NCBI RefSeq assembly: GCF_002749975.1
Contig: NZ_PEIG01000001.1
Coordinates: forward strand, 434,001 to 498,000
Origin: Gloeocapsopsis sp. IPPAS B-1203
Lineage (GTDB): Bacteria > Cyanobacteriota > Cyanobacteriia > Cyanobacteriales > Chroococcidiopsidaceae
Direction of reading: 5' to 3'
DNA: 64,000 nt
Shown here: in pieces, positions 12,638-60,913 of the stretch
How positions within the stretch are numbered: the first letter of the stretch is position 1
Layout: each line of letters starts with the position of its first letter
The notes under the pieces: model-generated
What the model saw: the letters and a program-made list of their open reading frames with translations, nothing else
Told to the model about the DNA's origin: nothing
The model's database searches: none
Translations under genes and position numbers: made by a program

Positions 12638-12915
12638 GAAACAGGGGTAAGGAGGAGCCAGTTACGTGCGGAGGTGTCCTCCGTTGAGGAGCCACTGCGT
12701 TGCGGGGGTTCCCCTCGTTGTAGCAAGTGGCGTCAAACTGGCGTTAAGGGGCGAGGGGCGGCGAGTGACTGGTGGAAGTGTGGGAGTGTAGGAGAGTGGG
12801 AGTGTGGGAGTGTAAAAGATAATTGTCAACTTCCCTCATACCCAACTGCCCGCTTACTCGCCTACCGCCTACCCAACTACCCACTTACCCAACTCTTTCT
12901 GAACCCCGACTCACT
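12638..12915. repeat. Repeat-rich spacer between aar and accA
   Basis: The gap contains short hairpins (GGAGGTGTCCTCC; GGGGTTCCCC), then a purine-rich GTGGGAGTGT/GAGAGTGGGAGTGTGGGAGTG run, then a pyrimidine-rich series of CCCAACTNCCC-like units that partly complements it. The composition explains the meaningless cysteine/tryptophan-rich open frames that cross it. I see no gene here. Confidence 0.5.
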
Positions 12916-56508: not shown

Positions 56509-59500
56509 CTATGATAACTCGATAGCTCCCAACGCTCTTAAAGTAGTTTTTTGCGCGTTAGTTAAACCTTCGATATCAGTAATGTTCATATTTTCATAAG
56601 GTCTAGTAGTTCTTAATGTTTTCTGACATTGTCCAGTCTTATGCCAAAACTTTATTGTTTCGTCTTGGCTACTACTTGCCACTTGACCATCAGGACTAAA
56701 GGCGATCGTTCTTACCCAACTTTTATGTCCTTGCAGCGATTGTAAACATTCACCCGTTGTGACATCCCATAGCTTAACACTACAGCGATCGCCATTCGTT
56801 GCTAACATTTGACCATCAGGGCTAAACACAACTGACCAGATCGTACTCGGATCGGCTAAGAGCGACTGCAAACATTGACCTGTCTTGACATCCCAAAGCT
56901 TAACAATACCATCATCACTGCCGCTCGCTAAAATCTGACCATCAGGACTCAAGGCGACAGACTTGATGCTAGCTGTATGTCCGTGTAGAGCTTGGTAGCA
57001 TTGATGAGTAGAAACGTGCCAAACTCTCACGGTTCGATCAGTGCTACCACTAATGATGATTTGACCATCTAAACTCACTGCGATTGTACGCACCTGGCTA
57101 GGATGATGCATTGTCCTTAAGCATTCTCCTGTTGTGACATCCCATAACTTTACGCTACAGTCATCACTACCACTCACAATCGTCAAGCTATCGGGAAGAA
57201 ACGCCACCGAGCGCACTTGATCTTGATGCCCATGTAAGGTTGTCAGACATTCACCCGTGCTAACTGACCATAATCTTAATGTTTGATCGTTGCTCGCACT
57301 CACTAAAGTTTGATTATCTGGGCTGAAAGCAACCGACTGTATTCGGCTAGTATGACCTGGCAAGATTTTGATATTTTCGCCATCTTGAGGATTCCACAAT
57401 CTAATAGATGTATCATTACCACCACTTGCCATCAGCCCATTAGGACTAAAAGCGAGGGCTGCAGCCCAGTTCTGATGAGCGTTTAAAGTTCTGACGCATT
57501 GACCAGTACTCATCTCCCATAATTTGATCTGTTGGTCGTTACTACTGCTTGCTAGTGTTTGACCATCAGGATTAAAGGTAACTGCTCGGACTTGACTTGT
57601 GTGTCCTTTTAAGGTTTTGAGACATTTACCTGTGTTGACTGACCACAGTTTGGCTGTGCGATCGCTACTCCCACTAGCTAAGATTTGACCGTCGGGACTA
57701 AACGCTACTGATTGAACTTCGTTTGTATGGTCTTGTAATGTCTTGAGACATTCACCTGTGCTAACTGACCACAGTTTGGCTGTGCGATCGCTACTCCCAC
57801 TGGCTAAGATTTGACCGTCGGGACTCATTGCCATTGATAAAATTTTGCCGGTATGCTGTTGCAAAGTTGTCAGCCGTTTTTGCGAGCTAACAGACCATAA
57901 CTCGATTGTTCCGGTGCTGCTACCACTGATCAGAACTTCACCATTAGGACTAAACGTCAATGAGGTTATTTGATTCACACCTCCACGCAAAGTGGCAATA
58001 GATTCTCCAGTATCCGCAGACCATAGTTTGATGCCATCACAACTTGCACTCGCAAGAACTTGACTGTCAGAACTTACTGCGAGCGCGCAGACTGGATTAA
58101 GATGTCCGTGCAAAGATTTGAGACATTGACCTGTATTGATATCACCCAACTTCACTGTGCGATCGCTAGCAAAAACCAGTGTTTGCCCATCTGGACTTAT
58201 ATTTGCGACACGTAACCATGTATTGCATCCCTTACTCAGATGTTGTAGCTTCATCTGAGGAACGTGCCAGATGTATGTTGCACCACTAGTGTCAACCACA
58301 GTCAAAAATTGTCCATTAGAACTAAATTCGATTGCTAGAAGACTACCAAAATTTGCTAAGAAGACCGACTTATCTATATTTGAGGACGCCAAGTTCACTT
58401 GATGTAAATCGATATCAAGACAAGCTTGCCATATGTTTAGATGAGAGAAGTCATATCCATTAAGATCAACTTGCATGTGACCCAATAGATTGAGGATATT
58501 ACCTCCGGTATACCCTGGTTGCAGCGGCGATCGCTCTTGCAAGCTTTTGATAATTTTGTTGAGGTGGTTGGTAATACTCTTACGACTTCCCATGTCAGCA
58601 AAAAGCTGATTAATTATTGGTTGCAAAATGTAGCGAGTTTGTGCATTTCTAATATATTCTTTTGCTTGAGCTTTTACTAGGGCATGACTTCTGAAAAGTA
58701 CTAATTGTTGTGTCTTCAACTCTAAACATATTTGCTTAATAAAGCGGTCTGTCACGTATTCAGCGATCGCAGGTTGTTGTGTAAATAGTCCTGAATACTT
58801 TTCAATCAACGCACGTTGTCGCAGGGACTCTAGAGCCTCAGCCAACTCTAGGGGGTGTACTTCTTGAAGAATATCTTCGGTTAGTTCTCGTAAGGAAACT
58901 GGCTTGCGGTTAATTGCTAACCAGTACATAATATCTTGCTCCATCCCTGATAGACGCTCAAAATCTTGGTCGAAGAGATTTTTAATATTGCTAAAAACTG
59001 TTTTACCTGAATTTAAGAAGTCTGTAACATTACCATCAAAGACATCTTGAATAATAGGAGCAACCATCTTTAATAACAAAGGATTGCCCCCATAAATTTT
59101 CATGATTTTTTCAAAGCTTGCCTCAGTTCCATACAATTGGCTAGATTTAATAATTTGCTGACCTTCTTCTAGGTTTAACCCACCTAAGTACAATGTTTTT
59201 ATGCGTTGTTCGCCTTCTTCCAAAAACAAATTTCTTGGCTTCTCTCGACTAGTTAATAGCAAACAACTTTGATGCAATGTTTCTCCTATACACCCAATTA
59301 ACTGTAAGTACCCTTCGGATTCTCGGTGAAATTCCTTGTTATTATTGTTATGTAAAATAGTATCAAAGCCATCAAGCACAAGCAGACAGCGGTGTTTGCG
59401 TAGGTAATCTAGTAATCTTAAAACACGTAAACTAATATTTTCTGGTAAATCAGTTTCTTTGTTTTGCGAAAGAAAATAAATGAGTTCCGCCAAGGTATCT

Positions 59501-60057
59501 TTAATTGGTGGAGCATGATGTAGGGATCGCCAAATAACATACTCAAACTTGTCTTGTACCTGCTGGGCTAACTTAACCGATAAGGCTGTTTTGCCAATGC
59601 CTCCTCTACCTAAAATTGTGACTACACGACAGCGATCGCTGACAATCCATTGCTCTAATGCAGATATCTCTTGAGTACGACCATAAAAGATTGCCACATC
59701 TGCTGCTTCTCCCCAATCCCTCCGAGTTTCAGTAATTTTTCTTTCTTGAGGTGGTAACGATTTTACTTCTTCTAATTTTCGCTGTAACGCAGTGCGAAAG
59801 TTCTTTTTACTAACTTTTTCTCCTAAAGCATCGGAAAGGATTTTCCATAATCTAGGTCCGACATCACGTTTCAAATAGTTGTCACTGTATCCCTCTTTGT
59901 CAGCAATCTCTTCATATGTATAACCTAACCAAGCACCCTTGAGAATAATTTTTTGTATATCTGTTAAATAACTTCCTTTTGTAGCAAAAACGGCAATATC
60001 TGCAGCCTTAAATTCTTCTTTACTATCTAAGTCTAAGTCAGATTCCGAATAGTTCAT
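56509..60057 (-). CDS. STAND NTPase with NB-ARC and 14 WD40 repeats
   Basis: 1182 residues from ATG 60057 (MNYSESDLDLDS), chosen because AGAGGTAAAG precedes it; the frame extends 15 codons further. Order: vMAP-type helix-turn-helix (about 25-95), NB-ARC ATPase (P-loop TILGRGGIGKTALSVKLAQ near 149, Walker B CLLVLDGFDTIL), helical arm with ERLSGMEQDIMYWLAINRKP, then 14 WD40 repeats (about 570-1150), enough for two seven-bladed propellers. STAND proteins switch on ATP binding after a signal. Function here is unknown; regulatory or phage-defence roles are possible. Confidence 0.9.
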   Translation of the reverse strand: MNYSESDLDLDSKEEFKAADIAVFATKGSYLTDIQKIILKGAWLGYTYEEIADKEGYSDNYLKRDVGPRLWKILSDALGEKVSKKNFRTALQRKLEEVKSLPPQERKITETRRDWGEAADVAIFYGRTQEISALEQWIVSDRCRVVTILGRGGIGKTALSVKLAQQVQDKFEYVIWRSLHHAPPIKDTLAELIYFLSQNKETDLPENISLRVLRLLDYLRKHRCLLVLDGFDTILHNNNNKEFHRESEGYLQLIGCIGETLHQSCLLLTSREKPRNLFLEEGEQRIKTLYLGGLNLEEGQQIIKSSQLYGTEASFEKIMKIYGGNPLLLKMVAPIIQDVFDGNVTDFLNSGKTVFSNIKNLFDQDFERLSGMEQDIMYWLAINRKPVSLRELTEDILQEVHPLELAEALESLRQRALIEKYSGLFTQQPAIAEYVTDRFIKQICLELKTQQLVLFRSHALVKAQAKEYIRNAQTRYILQPIINQLFADMGSRKSITNHLNKIIKSLQERSPLQPGYTGGNILNLLGHMQVDLNGYDFSHLNIWQACLDIDLHQVNLASSNIDKSVFLANFGSLLAIEFSSNGQFLTVVDTSGATYIWHVPQMKLQHLSKGCNTWLRVANISPDGQTLVFASDRTVKLGDINTGQCLKSLHGHLNPVCALAVSSDSQVLASASCDGIKLWSADTGESIATLRGGVNQITSLTFSPNGEVLISGSSTGTIELWSVSSQKRLTTLQQHTGKILSMAMSPDGQILASGSSDRTAKLWSVSTGECLKTLQDHTNEVQSVAFSPDGQILASGSSDRTAKLWSVNTGKCLKTLKGHTSQVRAVTFNPDGQTLASSSNDQQIKLWEMSTGQCVRTLNAHQNWAAALAFSPNGLMASGGNDTSIRLWNPQDGENIKILPGHTSRIQSVAFSPDNQTLVSASNDQTLRLWSVSTGECLTTLHGHQDQVRSVAFLPDSLTIVSGSDDCSVKLWDVTTGECLRTMHHPSQVRTIAVSLDGQIIISGSTDRTVRVWHVSTHQCYQALHGHTASIKSVALSPDGQILASGSDDGIVKLWDVKTGQCLQSLLADPSTIWSVVFSPDGQMLATNGDRCSVKLWDVTTGECLQSLQGHKSWVRTIAFSPDGQVASSSQDETIKFWHKTGQCQKTLRTTRPYENMNITDIEGLTNAQKTTLRALGAIELS

Positions 60058-60523: not shown

Positions 60524-60913
60524 ATGTATCCTTCACATTCAGAAGATAAAGCGAGAACCAATGGTTACGGACGGCACAATCCTGATGCAACCAGTCGTCC
60601 AACCTTTTATATGTCAGAAGAACTGCTAAGAGCTATTCAGATTCAAGCACAGCGCGAACGCAACTCTCGTTCTGGGTTTATTTCTGGTTTGTTAAGCTTT
60701 CTATTGTTGTCACCCGTTGGTCAACAATTACGAGACAATGCTCGTAGTAACAACCGCACTTTAGCTCAAGAATTAGAGCAATCTTTAGCGTTACTACAAC
60801 AACAGATACCTATTGAGCAAGTTAATCAGCTTGCGGTTACAAGCCAGCGATCGCAAATAGAAATGCTGACTCATTTGGTGTTATTAGGATTACAAGCATA
60901 TTCTAGAGAGTAA
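60524..60913 (+). CDS. Small protein with ribbon-helix-helix-like segment
   Basis: 129 residues from ATG 60524 (a TTG just before it is ignored). After a polar, Asn/Arg-rich N-terminus the segment RPTFYMSEELLRAIQIQAQR followed by ERNSRSGFISGLLSFLLLSP has the strand-helix-helix shape of ribbon-helix-helix DNA-binding proteins. The rest is helical (TLAQELEQSLALLQQQIPIE). I do not recognise the family. It faces the STAND gene across a common promoter region and could be its regulator; this is inference. Confidence 0.5.
   Translation: MYPSHSEDKARTNGYGRHNPDATSRPTFYMSEELLRAIQIQAQRERNSRSGFISGLLSFLLLSPVGQQLRDNARSNNRTLAQELEQSLALLQQQIPIEQVNQLAVTSQRSQIEMLTHLVLLGLQAYSRE

Follow-up and report, generated by a model that had tools for sequence, protein, structure and literature searches.

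The question raised by this locus is whether DNA copying between neighbouring repeats of a receptor's sensor domain is a sign of selection for change at the sensor surface. A sequence-only reading of the window (the whole stretch of 64,000 nucleotides analysed, from the cyanobacterium Gloeocapsopsis sp. IPPAS B-1203) had proposed as much for a STAND protein with WD40 blades, in the manner of variable recognition receptors. We consider it probable that the product of the gene is a member of the cyanobacterial STAND receptors with 14 WD40 blades, a putative ligand-gated switch in which blades 5 and 6 undergo recurrent, patchwise conversion.

The STAND protein and the tract in blades 5 and 6

The gene, its parts and its neighbour are placed as follows.

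56509..60057, minus strand: STAND NTPase gene with 14 WD40 blades, 1182 aa (Pfam NACHT, NB-ARC, WD40)
59758..60057, minus strand: N-terminal helical domain, perhaps HTH-like (residues 1-100; helices in the model)
59062..59688, minus strand: NB-ARC/NACHT-type STAND NTPase domain (residues 124-332; NACHT 2.3e-12, NB-ARC 2.7e-12)
57490..58365, minus strand: blades 1-7, predicted first WD40 propeller (blade profile, model)
57742..57867, minus strand: blade 5, 126 bp
57764..57825, minus strand: near-identical tract, blade 5 copy, 62 bp
57616..57741, minus strand: blade 6, 126 bp
57638..57699, minus strand: near-identical tract, blade 6 copy, 62 bp with one mismatch
56617..57489, minus strand: blades 8-14, second WD40 propeller (Z 45.2, rmsd 1.3 to 7bie_A over model residues 862-1149)
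56512..56616, minus strand: conserved C-terminal tail of 35 residues, common to the genome's other 14-blade STAND proteins
60524..60913, plus strand: divergent neighbour gene, about 130 aa, with two sub-threshold ribbon-helix-helix matches

The ATG start of the gene is common to the window gene and five orthologs. Both Pfam scores of the NTPase domain exceed their cut-offs (NACHT 47.5 bits against 26.7, NB-ARC 46.9 bits against 23.5), which identifies the protein as a STAND NTPase, and a linker lies between this domain and the WD40 blades. The total of 14 repeats given by the sequence-only reading was recovered with a profile built from this protein family. That reading had also arranged the repeats in two seven-bladed propellers. 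The second of these is well matched: residues 862-1142 of the structure model align with WD40 structures at Z 40.9-45.2 and rmsd 1.2-1.7 among the matches listed, 2YMU aside, and the top match other than 2YMU is titled a 7-bladed propeller. The first is predicted from the blade count and from likeness to 2YMU, which is the best PDB match both by sequence and by Foldseek (44% identity in Foldseek). The model has a mean pLDDT of 78.8 and a pTM of 0.49, and the placement of domains in it is therefore untrustworthy.

A Pfam search of the N-terminus gave no family above the cut-off, a Sigma70_r4_2 match in this domain (E 0.011) falling below it. A domain with 54% identity to part of the N-terminus stands ahead of an AAA_35 domain in a different gene of this genome (L019:1486-2844), and its presence in both STAND and AAA_35 proteins suggests that it may serve as a shared adaptor. 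PADLOC returned partial matches only, to HEAT-ARM_XIII in the propeller region (135.9 bits, positions 5-280 of a profile of 1972) and to PDC-S27 at residues 125-166 (27.6 bits), and neither PADLOC nor NCBIfam filed the whole protein. The C-terminal tail has 5 matches in its own genome, each within a long WD40 STAND frame, and the genome holds four 14-blade STAND genes besides this one. Elsewhere in the window, three short tandem arrays lie near one another at 12652-12894.

The tract shared by blades 5 and 6 is 62 bp long with one mismatch at a lag of 126 bp, just as the sequence-only reading had placed it, and 38 bp of it are exact; the next best one-mismatch tract in the gene spans 26 bp (lags 9-1799). 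All 20 full codons within the tract encode the same residue in both blades and 19 of them are identical, the chance of 20/20 identical codons under this gene's codon use being about 6e-10. In 500 shuffles of synonymous codons the longest one-mismatch tract was 43 bp. The codon identity and the shuffles together therefore indicate copying of DNA, beyond any shared protein constraint, and bear out the earlier remark that the likeness includes synonymous positions. The same reading had described the blades in general as near-identical in DNA, which holds for the pair 5-6 and fails for the rest: mean identity among blades is 0.52 in DNA and 0.39 in protein. The latter does not reach the 60% internal-symmetry cut-off used for highly repetitive beta-propellers (PMC9218822), with the proviso that the two identity measures may differ. 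Blades 5 and 6 themselves differ outside the tract.

Concerted evolution of blades 5 and 6 among orthologs

Among the matches listed, at least six genomes of the family, the window's included, carry the gene, with STAND identities of 83-100%; two relatives, G001 being one, are placed in the genus of the window genome. The locus is syntenic in all six, with the divergent 130-aa gene and a glycosyltransferase as its constant neighbours. Comparison of repeat number and sequence between strains had been suggested as a check; across these genomes every one of the six orthologs has 14 blades, which align one to one, and the sequences of blades 5 and 6 differ between genomes. In each of the six the most alike pair of blades is 5-6 (identity 0.75-0.91). 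When all 91 blade pairs were compared over five genomes (L080 was left out as too near the window gene), identity within genomes exceeded that between genomes for the pair 5-6 alone, at 0.835 versus 0.787.

A tree of the 12 copies of blades 5 and 6 from the six genes grouped them by genome for the window gene with L080 (support 100), for L081 (96) and for L084 (78), and strict orthology of the blades was rejected by the AU test at p 0.031, a moderate significance obtained from 132 columns. Same-residue codons in the core of the pair are identical at 18/19 positions in the window gene, 19/19 in L080, 16/17 in L081, 15/17 in L082, 12/18 in L083 and 18/19 in L084, the figure for ten further pairs of neighbours among blades 3-14 of these genomes being 269/529. 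Conversion has not been constant in every lineage, since blade 6 of L082 and blade 6 of L083 cluster as orthologs (support 74) and L083 retains the lowest count, 12/18.

Near-identical tracts in the six genes range from 49 to 110 bp, and their borders lie inside the blade. In the core of blades 5-6 identity is 0.943 within genomes versus 0.820 between them, the first six codons show the reverse (0.689 versus 0.814) and the last eight show no difference (0.730 versus 0.733). Codons 7-14 of the two blades are identical in L081 and L084 (24/24 bases each) and not in the other four genes, so that the patches vary in extent. The sequence comparison thus documents copying at the DNA level, its recurrence in several lineages, patch borders within the blade and a constant blade count in six orthologs, and the copying or conversion that had been suggested from the window alone is supported as recurrent.

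A mechanism that would account for these observations is that a patch of about 50-110 bp in one blade is overwritten by the neighbour's, the blade count staying at 14. Recombination between adjacent homologous blades would drive the copying, and selection for two closed 7-bladed propellers would remove gains and losses of blades. By analogy with Apaf-1 and NLRs, a ligand bound to the propellers would release the NTPase, nucleotide-driven oligomerisation would follow, and the output would pass through the helical N-terminus.

The divergent neighbour gene was found in 10 of 60 genomes, its own included, and adjoins a STAND gene in all ten. The pair is likely a two-gene module, its smaller member being a putative DNA-binding regulator. 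In G003, G009 and G013, all of one genus (L173, L174 and L175), the module's STAND gene is without a propeller: two genomes have 558-aa frames, in the third stop codons interrupt the frame, and the 8 kb examined at these loci gave no propeller match.

Selection on the surface and other explanations

If blades were shuffled under diversifying selection to give a variable recognition receptor, as in fungal het-d and het-e, the propeller surface should bear the mark. For the window gene against its five orthologs, dN/dS is 0.12-0.17 over the propellers, compared with 0.04-0.12 for the rest of the protein; selection on the propellers is purifying between species. In the Podospora NWD receptors four WD40 codons are under strong positive selection (PMC1805685). 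By a mapping of our own, through the conserved residues between them, the fungal codons 7, 9, 25 and 27 correspond to columns 8, 10, 27 and 29 of the blades studied here. These four top-face positions are more diverse among blades than the others (entropy 2.59 versus 1.31). Between orthologs they changed no faster: the count in blades 3-14 minus 5 and 6 was 0.47 changes per blade versus 0.48 at other positions (permutation 0.51), and with four species pairs pooled their pN values were 0.063, 0.040, 0.038 and 0.072 versus 0.059 overall. The blades thus differ from one another in surface and most of that surface is kept, because the top face is diverse among blades and not faster between orthologs.

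Several observations favour such a receptor all the same. Concerted evolution of repeats, a trait of the fungal genes, is present here, in blades 5-6 only. Conservation is lowest in these two blades when the window gene is paired with L081 and, independently, L082 with L083; the same holds for L080-L081 and, as a tie, for L083-L084. It does not hold for the window gene with L080 or with L084, and for L082-L084 and the window gene with L082 it holds for only one of the two blades. Positions 8 and 10 of the top face lie within the identical 24 bases of L081 and L084. In blades 5-6, position 8 has 1.5 changes per blade, among the highest values. The other top-face positions of these blades are unremarkable, and for blades 5-6 alone the top-face count was 0.63 versus 0.54 (permutation 0.47). 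None of these comparisons reveals the excess change at blade surface positions that had been put forward as a check, and positive selection of the fungal type was not seen between species. The variable repeat number of the fungal genes was likewise not seen between species, with 14 blades in each ortholog, and the syntenic locus also counts against the idea. Exchange with other genes of the genome left no sign either: outside the gene, the match of blades 5-6 that scored best in their own genome was 70% over 201 bp, shorter ones reaching 82% over 45 bp, and when 12 blades were each run by blastn against every blade of 86 receptors, the first match was in the same gene or its orthologs. Between species this evidence, as far as sequences can tell, speaks against a fast-changing receptor, and we regard a sensor surface under selection to change as an unlikely reading of the locus. 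If the propellers do bind a ligand, a constant one would be more likely than a fast-changing phage protein, because the surface as a whole is conserved between species.

Another possibility is that a whole blade was duplicated by unequal crossing-over and the gain offset by a loss, without conversion. Amplification of blades is the accepted origin of such propellers (PMC9218822). Here, however, two events would be needed, the blades align one to one in six orthologs, and homogenisation sets in only within the blade, after a flank that has stayed distinct. In blade 6 of L084, for example, the core has the sequence of blade 5 and the 5' flank is still that of blade 6. Such a mosaic appears to fit conversion better than duplication of a whole blade, which we hold to be improbable.

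Constraint on the protein might by itself keep blades 5 and 6 alike, and the tract does span the conserved turn and the two strands after it. The synonymous sites contradict this explanation, the core in the window gene having 18/19 identical codons against 269/529 in the other adjacent pairs, and none of the 500 shuffles attained 62 bp; constraint alone is accordingly a very improbable cause. Collapse or misassembly of the repeats, conceivable in a draft genome of 57 contigs and named earlier as a condition that would overturn the observation, is scarcely credible, given that blades 5 and 6 differ outside the tract and that the pair stands out, with differing sequences, in the syntenic orthologs of five other assemblies, two of which have few contigs (G002 with 3, G014 with 5).

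The 14-blade receptor class and the meaning of probable recurrent conversion

Recurrent conversion within a fixed array may be viewed against the wider class, which was sampled as 86 receptors, the window gene and 85 from its own and related genomes. All 86 have 14 blades once split hits are joined, a count that is favoured by their having been picked among the matches listed, mainly as frames of about 1150-1265 aa; some of the matches listed, one at a contig start among them, lie outside this sample. Sixteen further receptors (nine of unusual frame length, seven ordinary) were more varied: seven have 14 blades in one frame, two attain 14 when counted across a frame break (1+13, with an extra stray blade upstream, and 8+6), and the rest have 13, 10, 3, 3, 10 (truncated by a contig end), 13+2 over broken frames, and 0 blades. 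A near-identical tract with a score of at least 35 occurs in 39 of the 86 receptors versus 3 of 258 shuffled versions (three per gene), and in 33 of the 39 the best tract joins neighbouring blades.

The strict concerted signature is far rarer, being found in 15 of 4251 comparisons and in three ortholog groups only, and it is absent from other receptors of the same genomes. The window group accounts for 8 of these comparisons and the G006 genes L085 and L086 for at least 5; the third is the L097 group (blades 2-3), whose whole-blade identity is without the strict signature. L081 falls outside the strict scan for blade 6, that blade being 41 codons long. Many members of the class therefore show copying between blades, but few show sustained concerted evolution of one pair. 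The best tract was in the pair 5-6 in 7 of 24 group-by-pair cases from 22 receptor groups (binomial 0.0017, uncorrected for the choice among pairs, which is a factor of 13; this preference was sought post hoc). With groups cut at 70% STAND identity, L085/L086 are counted apart from the window group although both have the neighbour gene. A favoured sector of the first propeller may lie behind the recurrence of this pair. The two G006 paralogs themselves have near-identical blades, and in L085 blades 5-7, a sector matching that of the window gene, are 91-96% identical in DNA. Copying in L089, also of G006, is on the scale of a propeller, with 550 bp at lag 882 (seven blades; 103 mismatches) and 1060 bp at lag 252 (215 mismatches).

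Apaf-1 has one 7-bladed and one 8-bladed propeller. As is predicted for the window protein, it places two WD40 propellers after an NB-ARC NTPase, and it ranks second in Foldseek (3sfz); no CARD is found among the Pfam matches of the N-terminal half of the window protein. With its STAND domain followed by 14 WD40 blades, the window protein has the domain order of the WRAP class. WRAP itself (Npun_R6612 of Nostoc punctiforme, 2YMU) is described as a STAND ATPase with 14 C-terminal WD40 blades in two 7-bladed propellers (PMC6805158, PMC9218822). Its 14 blades are all nearly identical and are read as one recent amplification, whereas the blades here are divergent and one adjacent pair is repeatedly homogenised. 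In the repetitive prokaryotic WD40 proteins, frequent in Cyanobacteria, repeats are likewise alike down to synonymous sites, and the hotspot positions are those diverse among repeats (PMC5587647). The fungal het-d, het-e and hnwd genes of Podospora also combine a STAND NTPase with WD40 repeats under concerted evolution, but their repeats are exchanged within and between loci and their repeat number is highly polymorphic (PMC1805685); here exchange is seen only within the gene, the number is fixed in orthologs and the equivalent positions are not accelerated between species. The DGR-diversified sensors of multicellular bacteria are also bacterial STAND proteins with a variable C-terminal sensor, and are distinguished by a retroelement that mutates a C-type lectin domain (PMC10907252).

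The receptor class, its amplified blades and the fungal parallel are thus already known, and concerted evolution at the level of genes has been described in prokaryotes (PMC6053082). What is new in detail is sustained conversion confined to one adjacent pair at a fixed blade number, and the constant association of a ribbon-helix-helix-like divergent gene with the STAND gene. Among the titles listed by a search of the open-access literature, none dealt with conversion between STAND propeller blades in bacteria, and the term 'gene conversion' does not occur in the accessible text of PMC9218822 or PMC5587647. It is possible, though rather doubtful, that such conversion is a mode of diversification at fixed count, in which the core of a receptor's own hot pair of neighbours is repeatedly overwritten and one sector is renewed while the 14-blade frame is kept.

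Near-identical blades of such propellers have been read as young amplifications (PMC5587647, PMC9218822), internal identity being taken in the former as a measure of how recently the domain formed. In the present receptor identity is local, and recurrent conversion would keep renewing the likeness of the pair 5-6 within an array that is itself older, so that internal identity may not always be a clock of origin. Concerted evolution of repeats also appears separable from diversification of the surface. The fungal receptors show both together, and the separation of the two traits in this cyanobacterial receptor is a warning against taking one as proof of the other.
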